A stretch of DNA of 52,676 bases, from NCBI GenBank assembly GCA_015492245.1, contig WGFM01000015.1, positions 1 through 52,676 on the forward strand, in the 5' to 3' direction. The notes beneath the pieces are model-generated. The model saw nothing but the letters and a program-made list of their open reading frames with translations. It was not told the DNA's origin and did no database searches. A program made the translations under genes and the position numbers. Numbering within the stretch: the stretch's first letter is position 1; each line of letters opens with the position of its first letter. Source of the stretch: Deltaproteobacteria bacterium. Its GTDB lineage: Bacteria > Desulfobacterota > GWC2-55-46 > DRQE01. Below are positions 11,359-26,264 of this stretch, one piece after another.

Positions 11359-11378
11359 AGACACAATGAAGAGATACA

Positions 11379-11407
11379 ATTTAACAATTTTTTTGCCTCC
11401 CCGTCAA
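11379..11407 (-). promoter_or_regulatory. Promoter of the rnf operon
   Basis: On the minus strand TTGACG (11402-11407) and TTAAAT (11379-11384) are separated by 17 nt, with a TG just upstream of the -10. The predicted transcript would begin only about 14 nt before the rnfC ATG, which fits the lack of a ribosome binding site there. Confidence 0.5.
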
Positions 11408-11484: not shown

Positions 11485-11517
11485 GGACAGACATGTCGCA
11501 TACTGACATGCCTGTCC
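11485..11517. promoter_or_regulatory. Imperfect 13-bp inverted repeat, candidate enhancer or operator
   Basis: GGACAGACATGTC (11485-11497) and GACATGCCTGTCC (11505-11517) are reverse complements at 12 of 13 positions, with a 7-nt spacer. The arms contain an inner TGTC-N7-GACA dyad. It lies about 140 bp upstream of the sigma54 promoter at 11625-11641, the usual distance for binding of an NtrC-type activator, and about 80-110 bp upstream of the rnf promoter. The rest of 11359-11687 is AT-rich with no gene. It is not followed by a T tract, so a terminator is unlikely. Confidence 0.6.
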
Positions 11518-11624
11518 ACTTACCAAAAGAGGCAGTCCTGTGTAGAATATGAGACACCGTATCGACCAAACAGGAAAACCCTTTACTCTCAACGCATTAT
11601 GCAACCACAACCTTATCAATATGG

Positions 11625-11641
11625 TTGGCACACATATTGCA
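11625..11641 (+). promoter_or_regulatory. Sigma54 (RpoN) -24/-12 promoter
   Basis: TGGCAC (11626-11631), five bases, then TTGCA (11637-11641) matches the sigma54 consensus; GG and GC are separated by exactly 10 nt as required. It lies 46 nt upstream of the ATG of the histidine kinase gene on the same strand. The sigma54 gene rpoN and a sigma54 activator gene are both in this window. Confidence 0.82.
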
Positions 11642-11687
11642 ATGAGAGGATACTGCCAGATTTTCAAAATAAAGGGGGTGATAGTTT

Positions 11688-14099
11688 ATGGAAACTGCGG
11701 GGAAGGGTTTTTTCAGAAAGTACTTTAGCATCCTTGGGCTGAAGATCACGGCAATAATAGCATCTGGCCTCACCTTTACCATTCTCTTTGCCTTCTGGTG
11801 GCTGGAAGGCAGTGGGCTAAGTGGAGAAACTTCTATCCTCTCCAATTACATGGATGAGCCCGCTCTGTGGATGATACTCGCCTCCGGGATAATAGGTATG
11901 CTTGCAATAATAAGCAAGGTATTGATACTTCCAATAAAGAACTTCGAGATACATCTCAGAGAACTGTCCCGTGGGAATGAGATGACAAAGGAGTTCACCC
12001 TCAGCCGCAGGGATGAGCTGGGCTACATGGTCTCACGGTTCAACGAGCTGCACAGGATCATAACAGAAAAACTGGAGGACAAGTCCCTCAAGCTCTCCAT
12101 CATCCACGAGTTCATGAACTCAACAGCAGGAGTGTTCACACCAAACGCCCTTATGGAATGTTTCTTCAACACGGTGCGCAAGATACTGCCCCTGGAGATA
12201 GGCATGTACTCCTTTCATTACAAGGGATTCTCGGAGGACCTCATCTTCAGCACCTTCGAGCTCGATGAGAAGAACAGACAGAAACTCGCAGGGCTACTCA
12301 AAGAAAGCTTTGCTTCTGTGCTGAGACACATGCCAGCGAAACCCACAGTTGGACCAGATGTTGTAAGGCTTGAATATATTCGTGGAATACCCTCGGGGCT
12401 CGACATAGACAGGATGGAAGAAAAAAGGATAACCCTTTACAGCTATGGAAAACCTGTTGGCGTAATATTGCTCATGTCATTCGACAGGGAGGCATTCAAG
12501 ACATCCAGAACACTCAATGCCATAGTGCATCACACCAACATGGTGCTCGATAGAATCATCCACCGCATATTCCTTGAAGAAAGAAGGCTCAACACCATCC
12601 TTTCCACAATGGAGGAAGGGGTATACATTGTAGACAAATACTACAGTGTGTCCCCTGTCAACCAGAGTGCCTTCCAGCTTCTAAGAAAGTTCTGCAAGAA
12701 CTTCAACCACAGCTGCCTCGCAGAGGGTTTCAAGATCGACATCGATAACTGTCCATATTACACGAACGATGGCACATGCGAGTTTGCGGAGACAATACGA
12801 GAGCTCAGAAACACACCCTTCATGACCAAGACAAGACGCCTGACCAAGGAGGTCAAAAACAGGGACGGCATGATAATGCTCCTCTCTATCGCACGGCTCC
12901 TGAGGGCTGAAGACGGCGAAGACGGCTATGTGATAACCGCAAAGGACATAACCGAGGAAAGGCGGCTACAGGAGAAGATATTTCTCTCAAGCAAGCTTAC
13001 CGCCATAGGGGAGATGGCAGCAGGCATAGCACACGAGATAAACAACCCCTTGCAGATCATAATGGGCAACATAGAGCTGCTCGAACAGCTCACAGACTCG
13101 GAAAAAGAAGAGATTTCAAAGAAGATAAGAAACATCCGTGAGGGCACCTTCAGAATAAAGAACATAGTGCATGACCTCCTCATCTTTGCAAGAGACAGGA
13201 CCACAGAGGCAGAAGTGATGGATATAAACACCATAGTGGAAAAGAGTATCGAGATGATGAAATACCAGTTCAAGACAAGCAACATTGTCATACACAAAAA
13301 GCTCGATACCCGCAGGGCACTCAATGTAAAGTGCAACAGAAACCTGCTGCAACAGGTCATAATAAACCTTCTGCAGAACTCGAAAGATGCAATAGAGGAA
13401 CACGCCAAGGGCTCCAGGGTAAGCATAAAAACAGAACTATCAGGTGGAAGAGTCTCAATAGAGATAACAGACGATGGGCCCGGTATACCAGAGTCGATAA
13501 TGTCCCAGATATTCGACCTCTTCTTTACCACAAAGGAGGTCGGCAAGGGAACAGGACTGGGGCTTGGAATCAGCAGGAAGATAATAGAAGACATAGGGGG
13601 AGAAATAAGCGTGGTGAACACGAGAGAGGGTGGAGCAAGGTTCAGGATAGTTCTGCCATACTACAGAAAATCAAGCACTGCAAAAAAAACTCCTGATGAG
13701 GGCAACCCCGACCTTTCAGGACTTGTAACAAGGGCTGTGCTCATGGTGGACGACGAACAGGACTTCCTTGAAACCATGCGTGAACTACTGCAGCCGAGAG
13801 TCTTCCTGTTCGATTACACAACCGATGGAAAAATTGCACTGGACAAGGTCCTCAACCGAGATTACGACTTCCTGTTGCTCGACCTCAAGATGCCAGAGAT
13901 GAGCGGCAAGGAACTATACAAGAAGGTAATAGAACACAAACCCTACATGGGAGAACGCATCATATTCCTTACAGGAGATACCGAGAGCGAATCATCAAAT
14001 GCATTCTTGAAACTGACAGGCTGTAAATACCTTGCAAAACCGTTTTCCGCAAGAACACTGCTGAACCTGCTATCAGACCAGTTAAATTGCTATGGATGA
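11688..14099 (+). CDS. Hybrid sensor histidine kinase with C-terminal receiver
   Basis: The 803-residue membrane kinase has two transmembrane segments (about 14-36 and 58-82) separated by a short loop, then a HAMP-like linker (about 83-140), a GAF/unknown region (about 145-300) and a PAS-like domain (about 305-425). A HisKA domain follows with the phospho-acceptor His449 in MAAGIAHEINNPLQ, then an HATPase domain with DDGPGIPESI and GKGTGLGLGI. A receiver domain ends the protein, with Asp732 in LLLDLKMPEM. The PAS-like region holds four cysteines (C-x6-C-x11-C-x8-C), perhaps a redox or metal site. A GGGGGTGAT ribosome binding site precedes the ATG. A plausible partner is the NtrC-type regulator two genes downstream. 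Signal unknown. Confidence 0.88.
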   Translation: METAGKGFFRKYFSILGLKITAIIASGLTFTILFAFWWLEGSGLSGETSILSNYMDEPALWMILASGIIGMLAIISKVLILPIKNFEIHLRELSRGNEMTKEFTLSRRDELGYMVSRFNELHRIITEKLEDKSLKLSIIHEFMNSTAGVFTPNALMECFFNTVRKILPLEIGMYSFHYKGFSEDLIFSTFELDEKNRQKLAGLLKESFASVLRHMPAKPTVGPDVVRLEYIRGIPSGLDIDRMEEKRITLYSYGKPVGVILLMSFDREAFKTSRTLNAIVHHTNMVLDRIIHRIFLEERRLNTILSTMEEGVYIVDKYYSVSPVNQSAFQLLRKFCKNFNHSCLAEGFKIDIDNCPYYTNDGTCEFAETIRELRNTPFMTKTRRLTKEVKNRDGMIMLLSIARLLRAEDGEDGYVITAKDITEERRLQEKIFLSSKLTAIGEMAAGIAHEINNPLQIIMGNIELLEQLTDSEKEEISKKIRNIREGTFRIKNIVHDLLIFARDRTTEAEVMDINTIVEKSIEMMKYQFKTSNIVIHKKLDTRRALNVKCNRNLLQQVIINLLQNSKDAIEEHAKGSRVSIKTELSGGRVSIEITDDGPGIPESIMSQIFDLFFTTKEVGKGTGLGLGISRKIIEDIGGEISVVNTREGGARFRIVLPYYRKSSTAKKTPDEGNPDLSGLVTRAVLMVDDEQDFLETMRELLQPRVFLFDYTTDGKIALDKVLNRDYDFLLLDLKMPEMSGKELYKKVIEHKPYMGERIIFLTGDTESESSNAFLKLTGCKYLAKPFSARTLLNLLSDQLNCYG

Positions 14100-14184: not shown

Positions 14185-15924
14185 ATGGAAGGAACAAGAA
14201 CTTTACGCACAAAACTCTTTATTGTACTATCTATATTTGCAATAATATCCTCTGGCGCAATAGTGTACAGCTTCATAAATACAAAGAATCAGAAGTTCGA
14301 TGCACTACTTATAAACCTTGCCGGGAGACAGCGTGCATTAAGCCAGATAATGACCAAGGGTGTGCTCGGGCTTTACAAGACGGCGATGGAGCCTGCAGCG
14401 GAGAACTTTGATTCAAAGAAGGCCACATATACCAGGATGACCAGAGAAGCAATGGAGCTTTTCGATGCCACCCTGAACAGTTTCATAAAGGGCGGTGTAA
14501 CCAAGGATGGGGTGGGAAAATCCATATACATCCCCAGGGTTGAAGATTCTGCCATACAGGTAGCGCTCCAGAAGGCAAAAACACGCTGGGACAACTTCAA
14601 ACAACATGTTGAAAAAACATTGAAACTTACAGACACACCAGGTAATCCAGAGTTCCTTGCCTCAGTAAGATACATAGAAGACGCCAACAAGAAGGTCTTC
14701 AAAGACATGAATGACCTTACCTTCAGCCTCCAGCAGTTATCGGACAGGAAGGTTGCCTTCTTCAAGCAGATACTGGCATCAGCCATTGCTCTAAACTTCG
14801 TAACCCTTGGCGTAATAATCTACCTGGTACATCGTATAATAATAAAGCGGCTAAGAGTCCTCCACAGCCATATGCAGGACATTACCAACGGCAACGGAGA
14901 CCTTGCAAAACGCATAGATGCAGGCACACCCGATGAGATAGGACTTCTTGGCAGAGAGTTCAACGCATTGCTTGACACCTTTGAACACATAATAAACAGG
15001 CTTACCGAGAGCACGGGCACACTCAAGCTATCTGCCGAAAGGCTGAACACAACATTTGCCTCGATAGTTAATGGTATAGATGAACAGAACAAGAAAACGG
15101 ACCAGGTTGCAACAGCCACGGAACAGATGAGTGCAGCCATAATGGAGGTTGCACGGAACACATCAACAATCGCCGAGATGACAAGGAAGGCAAACGATGC
15201 CACAAGACAGGGTGAGGTATGCATAAAGAAGATTATCAACAGGATAGATGACATCTCCAGAAGCACAGGTGAGTCCGTGGGCGTGGTTACCTCCCTTGGA
15301 GAGCAATCCCAGAAGATAGGCAACATCATCGAGGTCATAAACGAGATAGCTGATCAGACAAACCTGCTTGCACTCAATGCCGCCATAGAGGCCGCAAGGG
15401 CAGGCGAGCAGGGGCGTGGTTTCGCAGTTGTTGCAGACGAGGTGCGAAAACTCGCAGAAAGAACCACAAAGGCAACAAAAGAGATATACGACATGATAAC
15501 AGGCATACAGCATGAAAGCCAAAAGGCTGTAACGAGCATAAAGAAAGAGGCAAAAGCTGTAGAGGAAGGTGTGATGCTCACGAACGAGGTGAATACAGCA
15601 CTCGGCGAGATTACAGAACACATAAACACGGTGGACAGGATGGTTCAGCAGATTGCAACCACCACGGAACAGCAATCAACCGTGAGCAACAATATAAGCA
15701 CCGACATGGAGATGATAGCAAACATATCCAAAAAGTCCTACGACGGTGTGAGCGGGCTAACACAACTTGCCGTGGAACTGGAACACCTTGCAGGCCAGCT
15801 CGAAGAAGACCTTACCAGATTTCGTATCAAGAACAACGGTGAAGAAGGCTCTACAGAGGAAAGCACACAGAGGCTTCAGCCCCGGCCCACACTCGTTGTA
15901 GACAATGTGGGCACAGGGGCTTAA
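14185..15924 (+). CDS. PilJ-type methyl-accepting chemotaxis protein
   Basis: I chose the ATG at 14185 because it follows AAAGGAGG; the product has 579 residues. It has an N-terminal transmembrane helix, a ligand domain opening with NLAGRQRALSQIMTKGVLGLYK (the conserved P-box-like element of PilJ and NarX-type sensors), a second transmembrane helix at about residues 192-215, a HAMP domain (about 216-268) and a long coiled-coil signalling domain. The hairpin tip carries the universal motif (LLALNAAIEAARAGEQGRGF and VVADEVRKLAERT). No CheA, CheW or methylation enzymes are in the window. The PilJ domain is known for type IV pilus signalling and related nitrate-type sensors; the ligand here is unknown. 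Confidence 0.9.
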   Translation: MEGTRTLRTKLFIVLSIFAIISSGAIVYSFINTKNQKFDALLINLAGRQRALSQIMTKGVLGLYKTAMEPAAENFDSKKATYTRMTREAMELFDATLNSFIKGGVTKDGVGKSIYIPRVEDSAIQVALQKAKTRWDNFKQHVEKTLKLTDTPGNPEFLASVRYIEDANKKVFKDMNDLTFSLQQLSDRKVAFFKQILASAIALNFVTLGVIIYLVHRIIIKRLRVLHSHMQDITNGNGDLAKRIDAGTPDEIGLLGREFNALLDTFEHIINRLTESTGTLKLSAERLNTTFASIVNGIDEQNKKTDQVATATEQMSAAIMEVARNTSTIAEMTRKANDATRQGEVCIKKIINRIDDISRSTGESVGVVTSLGEQSQKIGNIIEVINEIADQTNLLALNAAIEAARAGEQGRGFAVVADEVRKLAERTTKATKEIYDMITGIQHESQKAVTSIKKEAKAVEEGVMLTNEVNTALGEITEHINTVDRMVQQIATTTEQQSTVSNNISTDMEMIANISKKSYDGVSGLTQLAVELEHLAGQLEEDLTRFRIKNNGEEGSTEESTQRLQPRPTLVVDNVGTGA

Positions 15925-16012
15925 AGAACCGGAAGTTTCAGTTTCACATACAGAAAACAAAAAAATCATAATAAGAGCGTCTTTGAAAAAACTATCTAAG
16001 TCTGGAACGCAA

Positions 16013-17407
16013 ATGTATAAAGTGATGGTAGTGGATGACGACGAAAGAGTATGCATGGATATTGCAGAAATTCTCGAGCAGGAGGGATACCTTGTTGCAA
16101 CCTTTACGAGTCCCATACATGCTATAAAAACGCTTGAGACAATACCAGATGTGGATCTCGTCCTTACCGACATAAAGATGCCGTCTGTGGATGGCATAGA
16201 GGTGCTGAACATTGCCAGAAACAGGAAGAACCCTGTGCCTGTCATAGTATTCACAGGCTATGGTGATATAGACATTGCCGTGGAGGTGATGAAAAAAGGG
16301 GCGAGTGATTTTCTCTGCAAGCCCATATCACGGAACGAAATGTTGATAAGGGTTAAAAACGCCCTTGAAAAGCAGAAGCTCGCAGAGGAGATAAAGGACC
16401 TCAGAAAAAAACTCACAGGCTATGAGGCATTCCACTCGCTCATCGGGAAGAGCAAAAGGATGCGCGACATCTATGAGCTCATAGATGTGGTCTCTCACAC
16501 AGACTCCACCGTGCTCATTCGTGGAGAGACAGGCACAGGGAAAGAACTTGTGGCACGGGCACTACACAGTGCGGGCGAGAGAAGGAGCAACCCTTTTGTG
16601 GGAATAAGCTGCACCGCACTGCAACCAACCCTTCTTGAAAGTGAGCTGTTCGGCCATGAGAAGGGTGCCTTCACAGGCGCGCATACCGTAAAGATAGGCA
16701 AGCTCGAGTCGGCAGGCGAGGGCACGGTGCTGCTCGACGAGATAGGAGACATGCCTCTCGACCTGCAGGCAAAACTCTTAAGGGTGCTCCAGGAAAAAGA
16801 GTTCGAACGGGTGGGAGGCATAAAGTCCATAAAGCTGAGGGCCCGGATAATAGCATCCACCAACAGAAACCTTGAAGAGGCGGTCAAAGAGGGCAAGTTC
16901 CGAAAAGACCTCTACTACAGGCTCAATGTGGTGCCGATAGAGTTGCCACCACTGAGGGAAAGGGGCGAGGATATAATACTGCTTGCAAACTACTTCCTCG
17001 ATGTGTTCAAAAGGCAATACGACAAGAAGATAGAGGGCTTCGCCCCGTCTGTCATCAGCGAGATGCTCGAGTACGACTGGCCTGGCAATGTGAGGGAGCT
17101 TAAGAATGTTATTGAAAGAACGGTGCTCATAAGCCCCAAGCGCTGGATAGACAGGCTCGCCAAACTGCCATCACATGATGAAAGGCTCAAGCTCTTCGAC
17201 AGAATGCCCATGAACATGCCCTATCTAAGGGCAAAAAAGAGTGTAACCGAGGAGCTGGAGAAGACCTATCTTATACATTACATGCGCCAGGAGAAGGGCT
17301 GCATAAAAAAGGTGGCAAAACTCATGGGGGTAAGCTCCAGAACGGTGAGCAGACAGCTTGAAAAATACGGGCTGCACAAATACCTGTTCAAAAAAAAGAA
17401 CCCCTGA
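16013..17407 (+). CDS. NtrC-type sigma54-dependent response regulator
   Basis: The 464-residue product has a receiver domain (residues 1-120) with phosphoacceptor Asp53 in LVLTDIKMPS, and an AAA+ central domain with Walker A GETGTGKE, the sigma54-contacting GAFTGA loop (residues 218-223) and Walker B VLLDEIGD. A C-terminal helix-turn-helix follows (KKVAKLMGVSSRTVSRQLEKYG). I chose ATG 16013 (MYKVMVVDD) although the longer open frame is in phase, because the receiver begins there; the ribosome binding site is weak (GGAA). It is the natural activator of the sigma54 promoter at 11625-11641, and the palindrome at 11485-11517 is its likely site. Its kinase is probably the hybrid kinase upstream. 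Confidence 0.92.
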   Translation: MYKVMVVDDDERVCMDIAEILEQEGYLVATFTSPIHAIKTLETIPDVDLVLTDIKMPSVDGIEVLNIARNRKNPVPVIVFTGYGDIDIAVEVMKKGASDFLCKPISRNEMLIRVKNALEKQKLAEEIKDLRKKLTGYEAFHSLIGKSKRMRDIYELIDVVSHTDSTVLIRGETGTGKELVARALHSAGERRSNPFVGISCTALQPTLLESELFGHEKGAFTGAHTVKIGKLESAGEGTVLLDEIGDMPLDLQAKLLRVLQEKEFERVGGIKSIKLRARIIASTNRNLEEAVKEGKFRKDLYYRLNVVPIELPPLRERGEDIILLANYFLDVFKRQYDKKIEGFAPSVISEMLEYDWPGNVRELKNVIERTVLISPKRWIDRLAKLPSHDERLKLFDRMPMNMPYLRAKKSVTEELEKTYLIHYMRQEKGCIKKVAKLMGVSSRTVSRQLEKYGLHKYLFKKKNP

Positions 17408-24830: not shown

Positions 24831-26264
24831 TTATGGACGCTTGCGTCTGTTTGAAGAAAGATAGCCCAGTTCCTCACGATACTTCGCAACGGTTCTTCTT
24901 GCAACTGTAATGTTGCATGCCTTGAGTTTCTCCACTATCTGCTGGTCTGTAAGGGGGTTGGCAGGGTTCTCTGCATCTATTATCTCCTTGAGTTTTTCTT
25001 TGACATACTCTGGCGTTATGGTGCCACTTGCACCGCTGACTCCTGTAGAAAAGAAGTATTTGAGTTCGAATATTCCCCTCGGGGTCTGCACATACTTGTT
25101 TGTGGTAACCCTGCTTATGGTGGACTCGTGCATACCTATGTCCTTTGCCACATCGGAGAGCACAAGGGGCTTGAGATAGCGCAGCCCTCTATCGAGAAAC
25201 TCTCTCTGGAACCTGACTATGCTTTCAACCACCCTCTTAAGGGTTCTCTGCCTCTGGTGTATGCTCTTTATGAGCCATACTGCAGAGTGGAACTTATCTT
25301 TTATATACTCCTTCACCTCTTTCGTTGCAAGTTCGTTGTTGTCTACAAGTTTCTTGTAATAGGAGCTTATATTGAGTTTTGGCAGGCCATCCTCGTTGAG
25401 CACCACCAGGTATTCATCGCCAACCTTGTATACATACACATCTGGCACTATGGCCCTTGCCTCGTCCCTGCCAAAACCTGCCCCTGGCACAGGGTTCAAG
25501 AGCTCTGATACAAGCCTGGCACCCCGCACAACCTCCTCTTCATCCACACCCATGCTCTTTGCCATGCCTTTATAATCCCTCTTTGCAAGCATCTCAAGGT
25601 GGCCCTCCACTATACTGGCTGCTATGGGGTCTATACTCTTCTGGTGTATCTGGGTCAGGAGGCACTCCTTGAGTGTTACAGCTGCCACCCCTGAAGGAGT
25701 GAACTCCTGAATCACATCGAGCACATATTCCACCTCCTTTGTGGACACCCCTATGGAGCTTGCAATCTCCTTTATTGTTGCATCCCTGTAGGTCTCATCA
25801 TCCATACCGCCCCGCTCGATCATTCTGAGGTAGCCATCCTCATCTATATTGCCTATTATGAACTCTCCTATCTTCTTTTCCCTCTCGTTCAAGGAGGAAC
25901 TGTTCAGCTGCCACATAAGGTGCTCCTTGAGTGTGGTCTCCGATGAAGAGAACCGTTCAAGGAGACCCTCTCTGTAGTCCTCATCGGAGTTGTCAATACT
26001 TCCCAGCCCTGCCCTGACAGTGTAATCACCGAGTCCTTCGAGGTAGTCCTGCCACTCCATCTCCACGGTTCTGGACTCTGGGGCGGGCACCTCGTCTGCA
26101 TCGAGTCTTCCATCCTCGAGGACAGGGTTTTTCTCAAGCTCCTCTCTTACAAGTTCCACGAGTTCCTGCCTCGAAAGCTGCAGTAGTCTTATGGCAAGCT
26201 TCAACTGGGGAGTCAGAAGCAGCTTCTGTGTTAGTTTAAGCTCCTGTTTGAACTCGTAGCTCAC
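24831..26264 (-). CDS. rpoN: RNA polymerase sigma54 factor
   Basis: RpoN directs RNA polymerase to -24/-12 promoters and needs an AAA+ activator. The 477-residue product has the Gln/Leu-rich N-terminal activator-interacting region (KLTQKLLLTPQLKLAIRLLQ), the core-binding domain, and the C-terminal RpoN box ARRTVAKYRE (residues 455-464). The start is a GTG with AGGAA upstream. It is linked to lptB and hpf as is common. A matching sigma54 promoter and an NtrC-type activator lie in this window. Confidence 0.97.
   Translation of the reverse strand: MSYEFKQELKLTQKLLLTPQLKLAIRLLQLSRQELVELVREELEKNPVLEDGRLDADEVPAPESRTVEMEWQDYLEGLGDYTVRAGLGSIDNSDEDYREGLLERFSSSETTLKEHLMWQLNSSSLNEREKKIGEFIIGNIDEDGYLRMIERGGMDDETYRDATIKEIASSIGVSTKEVEYVLDVIQEFTPSGVAAVTLKECLLTQIHQKSIDPIAASIVEGHLEMLAKRDYKGMAKSMGVDEEEVVRGARLVSELLNPVPGAGFGRDEARAIVPDVYVYKVGDEYLVVLNEDGLPKLNISSYYKKLVDNNELATKEVKEYIKDKFHSAVWLIKSIHQRQRTLKRVVESIVRFQREFLDRGLRYLKPLVLSDVAKDIGMHESTISRVTTNKYVQTPRGIFELKYFFSTGVSGASGTITPEYVKEKLKEIIDAENPANPLTDQQIVEKLKACNITVARRTVAKYREELGYLSSNRRKRP

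Follow-up and report, generated by a model that had tools for sequence, protein, structure and literature searches.

A conserved tandem dyad upstream of a sigma-54 promoter as a putative control element of a kinase and chemoreceptor operon in an uncultured bacterial lineage

In the stretch of DNA analysed here (52,676 nucleotides from a Deltaproteobacteria bacterium, hereafter the window), a palindrome and a sigma-54-like sequence lie in the 330-bp intergenic region shared by rnfC (− strand) and a hybrid histidine kinase gene starting with ATG at 11688. This arrangement raises the question of which regulator the palindrome serves and which genes it controls. The elements concerned are as follows.

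11486..11497, no strand: putative enhancer dyad 1, GACAgacaTGTC, a GACA-N4-TGTC unit conserved across 22 aligned sites
11505..11516, no strand: putative enhancer dyad 2, GACAtgccTGTC, conserved as dyad 1, at 19 bp centre to centre
11626..11641, + strand: sigma-54 −24/−12 promoter TGGCAC-ACATA-TTGCA, TGGCACACATATTGCA, an exact pattern match kept in 14/14 kinase operons
24831..26264, − strand: rpoN (sigma-54), TIGR02395, 421.7 bits against a cut-off of 277

An earlier note had proposed a sigma-54 promoter before the kinase gene, with rpoN in the same window, and both proposals hold. TGGCACACATATTGCA is canonical, with a GG to GC spacing of 10, and ends 46 nt before the kinase ATG; it is the sole exact match to TGGCAY-N5-TTGCW within the whole window. 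The exact motif occurs 18 times genome-wide, versus 0 with the reversed-pattern control, and the TGGCA and TTGC elements are retained at 22/22 aligned sites. The kinase promoter would need RpoN, and transcription is predicted to start near 11651. Further exact matches in the genome (L010, L012–L015, and L019) precede pilin-like and flagellar-type genes.

The 13-bp inverted repeat described in the earlier note is present (11485–11497/11505–11517, 12/13 match, 7-nt spacer). When the intergenic region was shuffled 200 times with dinucleotides preserved, the score of the repeat was reached once, so that the palindrome is only moderately unusual as a single sequence. The repeat is better read as a hairpin-style view of a pair of tandem dyads, GACAgacaTGTC-gcatact-GACAtgccTGTC (11486–11516), in which two 12-bp dyads form the pattern GACA-N4-TGTC-N7-GACA-N4-TGTC. 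The centre of this element lies 125 bp upstream of the sigma-54 promoter. A literature search for the dyad sequence found no sigma-54 case.

The genes downstream form the kinase-receptor-activator module that had been recognized earlier, and the genes for the kinase, the methyl-accepting chemoreceptor, and the GAFTGA activator were all confirmed.

11688..14099, + strand: membrane hybrid histidine kinase with GAF-like and PAS folds, HisKA, HATPase, and receiver domains (Pfam, orthologs, predicted fold)
12693..12779, + strand: PAS region of the kinase with Cys 336, 343, 355, and 364 (alignments; invariant for three of them and at least 90% conserved for the remaining one)
14185..15924, + strand: chemoreceptor with PilJ, HAMP, and MCPsignal domains (Pfam; ortholog alignment)
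15943..15972, + strand: sigma-70-like candidate promoter TTCACA-18-CATAAT before the activator gene (consensus match only; shuffle p 0.015)
16013..17407, + strand: NtrC-type activator with receiver, sigma-54 AAA+ with GAFTGA, and Fis-type HTH domains (Pfam; orthologs 57–95% identical)

The predicted fold of the kinase (mean pLDDT 80) contains the GAF-like and PAS domains. The four PAS cysteines, spaced C-x6-C-x11-C-x8-C, could possibly constitute a metal or redox site. The open frame of the chemoreceptor begins at TTG 14143, with ATG 14185 as the likely start, and encodes a membrane receptor with PF00015 (7.5e-52), PF00672, and the PilJ domain PF13675 (39.7 bits; cut-off 26.6). The genome also encodes CheW-domain proteins, and the chemoreceptor therefore has a pathway to feed. 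The activator frame is open from 15905, and its likely start is ATG 16013, 88 bp past the receptor gene; the domains PF00072, PF00158, and PF02954 and the GAFTGA motif in the translation fit a group I bacterial enhancer-binding protein. Its HTH is conserved among orthologs.

Whether the dyads and the promoter belong together was addressed by comparison of orthologous operons. Relatives of the same order and class yielded kinase orthologs (38–47% identical), most of which adjoin activator orthologs (mostly 57–68% identity; 95% in the same genus). The relatives with names are uncultured 'Deltaproteobacteria', mostly from groundwater metagenomes, which we place in the Desulfobacterota, GTDB class GWC2-55-46. 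At the DNA level, direct comparison against eight members of the family gave no match. In every one of the 14 orthologous kinase operons whose upstream DNA could be read, the window included, both the sigma-54 site and the tandem dyad are present, despite a kinase identity of only about 41%; the dyads are exact in 12 and carry one mismatch in 2, and their centres lie 106–189 bp upstream of the first T of the sigma-54 site. These 14 operons together with 8 target sites make up the 22 aligned sites. For the kinase operons, the search made use of neither element, whereas 7 of the 8 target sites were retrieved with the dyad pattern itself, so that only their sigma-54 site counts as independent. 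At none of the 16 specified dyad positions do more than 2 of the 22 sites deviate, and the spacer centre is usually A/T followed by T. In most relatives a receiver-only gene lies between the kinase and the activator (L065–L072 and L078); the chemoreceptor occupies this place in the window and in G011. The kinase ortholog of G050 (L074, 9260–11647) contains one in-frame TAG, due to a sequencing error, a pseudogene, or read-through.

The distribution of the dyad among genomes points to the regulator. With at most one mismatch, the dyad occurs in 17 of 59 related genomes (reversed-pattern control, 0): in 16 of the 19 that have a kinase or activator ortholog, versus 1 of the 40 module-free ones. 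This association within the class has a Fisher p of 1.4e-10, a value that is optimistic because the genomes are related. In the three module-bearing genomes without the dyad (G001, G011, and G034), the contigs break before the promoter. The single module-free exception, G051, has its dyad inside an open frame and without a sigma-54 site, and it was rejected as a regulatory site. Outside the class, a single genome (G182) of the 378 examined from the phylum contains the dyad, which lies there beside a coding end with just a poor sigma-54-like match and was likewise discarded as a control site. The near confinement of the dyad to module-bearing genomes of the class, together with its rarity elsewhere, leads us to consider that the tandem dyad is very probably the enhancer of the kinase-linked activator itself.

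The targets of the activator beyond its own operon, which the earlier note had left open, are suggested by dyads in relatives to be chemoreceptor genes and one GGDEF-EAL gene. Eight dyads lie outside kinase operons, and seven of them have a sigma-54 site with the usual spacing and, after it, a signalling gene: six chemoreceptors and one GGDEF-EAL protein. Three of the chemoreceptors are PilJ-type receptors 48–51% identical to that of the window (G042, G012, and G010), and three belong to a second family (G028, G022, and G031). The gene for the GGDEF-EAL protein of G028 (L139, 4305–6194) is preceded by a separate tandem dyad with a sigma-54 promoter, which in this one genome would link the regulon to cyclic di-GMP. 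A profile of the sensor region of the window receptor retrieved close relatives from six of the 63 class genomes and from no others (265–337 bits; next score, 97), all six being module-bearing (hypergeometric p 4e-4, again optimistic for related genomes). A separate dyad and sigma-54 site precede four of these six receptor genes. Three of the four dyads are exact, and that of G037 carries two mismatches, with TGGCAAATCTTTTGCA; the next-best place at that locus has six. The other two receptor genes, those of the window genome and G011, follow the kinase within the operon, and the upstream DNA of the G011 operon is missing.

The genome of the window itself contains one exact tandem site. A dyad scan allowing three mismatches gave 7 places, versus 14 in the reversed control, so that no additional target is credible there and the regulon can be checked in this genome only at its own operon. 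A lone exact GACA-N4-TGTC half-dyad, GACAAATCTGTC, lies about 164 bp upstream of the flagellar-type sigma-54 site at 1501 (L013); it was judged to be at chance level and was not retained as a target.

Other explanations of the region were weighed against these data. A fortuitous coincidence of a palindrome and a sigma-54-like sequence would agree with the only moderate rarity of the repeat within the single sequence; it is contradicted by the conservation across orthologous operons, with the dyad kept at 22 sites, and its probability is practically negligible. It may also be asked whether a different regulator binds the tandem dyad while the kinase-linked activator works elsewhere. The genome encodes 11 strong sigma-54 activators, any other of which could in principle recognize the dyad, but the dyad tracks the kinase-activator pair throughout the class, and the module-free relatives lack it despite having many other activators. 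We therefore regard this alternative as very unlikely.

The co-regulation of the divergent rnf operon, which the earlier note had suggested, is not supported. It draws on the position of the dyads in the shared region, roughly 80–110 bp upstream of a candidate promoter for rnfC:

11378..11407, − strand: sigma-70-like candidate promoter for rnfC, TTGACG-18-TAAATT with an extended TG (consensus match only)

However, rnfC adjoins none of the orthologous kinase operons of the relatives, no sigma-54 site faces rnfC, and the dyads found elsewhere precede no rnf genes. With a sigma-70-like candidate of its own before rnfC, we consider control of rnf by the palindrome highly improbable. 

We conclude with considerable confidence, on the basis of the comparative sequence data, that an NtrC-type two-component regulon, which would raise the expression of the kinase and chemoreceptors, has its enhancer and its sigma-54 promoter in this region.

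In the proposed circuit, the hybrid kinase, with its GAF-like domain and cysteine-rich PAS domain, would read a signal and relay it to the activator, the product of the last gene of the operon, phosphorylation by the kinase presumably being the switch. The phosphorylated activator would bind the two tandem GACA-N4-TGTC dyads and, via DNA looping, open the sigma-54 promoter 106–189 bp away (the site architecture being taken from conservation), which would raise the expression of the kinase and the chemoreceptor. In the window the PilJ-type chemoreceptor lies inside the operon, and one enhancer would thus serve both kinase and receptor, whereas in most relatives having the PilJ receptor its gene lies elsewhere, behind a separate dyad and promoter. 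A weak promoter before the activator gene probably supplies the activator as well. In relatives, the gap before the activator gene is 84–413 bp; several gaps contain good sigma-70-like matches and several do not, and none contains a sigma-54 site. These data suggest an independent basal promoter for the activator gene. The loop would then reinforce sensing capacity once on, and its effect may be larger on the sensor and receptor than on the activator. The self-activating circuit of the earlier note accordingly stands in part: the operon has a conserved sigma-54 promoter and distal enhancer, for which the activator is the best candidate binder, but the activator has its own sigma-70-like candidate and may be expressed mainly from it, which would weaken the term 'self-activating'.

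The sensor domain of the receptor offers some insight into the possible ligand.

14311..14346, + strand: N-box-like motif INLAGRQRALSQ (alignment; N-box definition from the sections of PMC6381276 drawn on here)

According to those sections, the nitrate N-box is [IVL][ND]xAGxQRML[ST]Q, and R61 of McpN (PA2788) from Pseudomonas aeruginosa, a chemoreceptor sharing the PilJ four-helix sensor, is essential. INLAGRQRALSQ fits this near-identical N-box at 11 of 12 positions and keeps the nitrate-binding Arg equivalent to R61. It departs from the strict N-box in that Ala replaces the contact residue Met62 of McpN in all six orthologs. Other PilJ proteins of the same class retain Met, indicating that the change is specific to the group of the window receptor. 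The predicted sensor fold matches best PcaY_PP, an aromatic-acid receptor, followed by McpN, with a TM of 0.73 on target length, and NarQ, among other matches; the sensor domain by itself gave no hit when searched by sequence against the PDB. In the second receptor family (two members at low stringency), the NIT domain PF08376 reaches 33.5 in L141 against a cut-off of 24.9 and was undetected in L138. An extension of the proposed regulon, rather than a rival to it, is that it constitutes a nitrate/nitrite taxis circuit whose chemoreceptors bind nitrate-like anions. The N-box with its Arg, the NIT match in one member of the other dyad-controlled family, and the modelled resemblance to McpN and NarQ are in its favour. 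On the other hand, the contact Met is lost, the top fold match is an aromatic-acid receptor, and, in the same sections of PMC6381276, neither the NIT domain of P. aeruginosa PA4520 nor the PilJ domains of the PilJ receptor itself bind nitrate. We regard this extension as possible but doubtful, and a nitrate-like anion as a reasonable guess for the receptor ligand. As reported there, nitrate lowers the expression of mcpN in a NarX-independent manner, and those sections describe no sigma-54 enhancer for mcpN, unlike the receptor operon of the window.

The system resembles NtrB/NtrC-type two-component systems, whose activators are group I sigma-54 enhancer-binding proteins, in its receiver-AAA+(GAFTGA)-Fis HTH activator, in the paired sites 100–190 bp upstream of a −24/−12 promoter, and in the location of the activator gene with the regulated operon. 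It differs in its unit, a tandem GACA-N4-TGTC at 19 bp, in its chemoreceptor targets, and in the extra receiver and cysteine-rich PAS domain of the hybrid kinase. In the sigma-54 regulome of Desulfovibrio vulgaris, motifs were likewise inferred from conserved sequences upstream of activator operons, and autoregulation was proposed for DVU1949 (main text of PMC4641369); a GACA or TGTC motif is absent from that main text.

The palindrome and the promoter are part of what reads as a conserved control switch in an uncultured bacterial lineage. We tentatively propose an undescribed sigma-54 two-component regulon dedicated to chemoreceptor supply, in which a cysteine-rich PAS kinase would raise its own synthesis and that of receptors with two kinds of sensor (PilJ and NIT-like) for nitrate-like anions, and in which the receptor gene would have moved between a separate site and the operon under the same enhancer. 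The analysis provides a putative binding motif at the base level and a target set for a regulator of a lineage known here from metagenomes alone, and these should be testable with purified parts. The occurrence of the same enhancer with the receptor gene within the operon in some genomes and in a separate place in others offers a natural comparison. Should the ligand prove nitrate-like, the system would act as a dedicated transcriptional switch for nitrate taxis.
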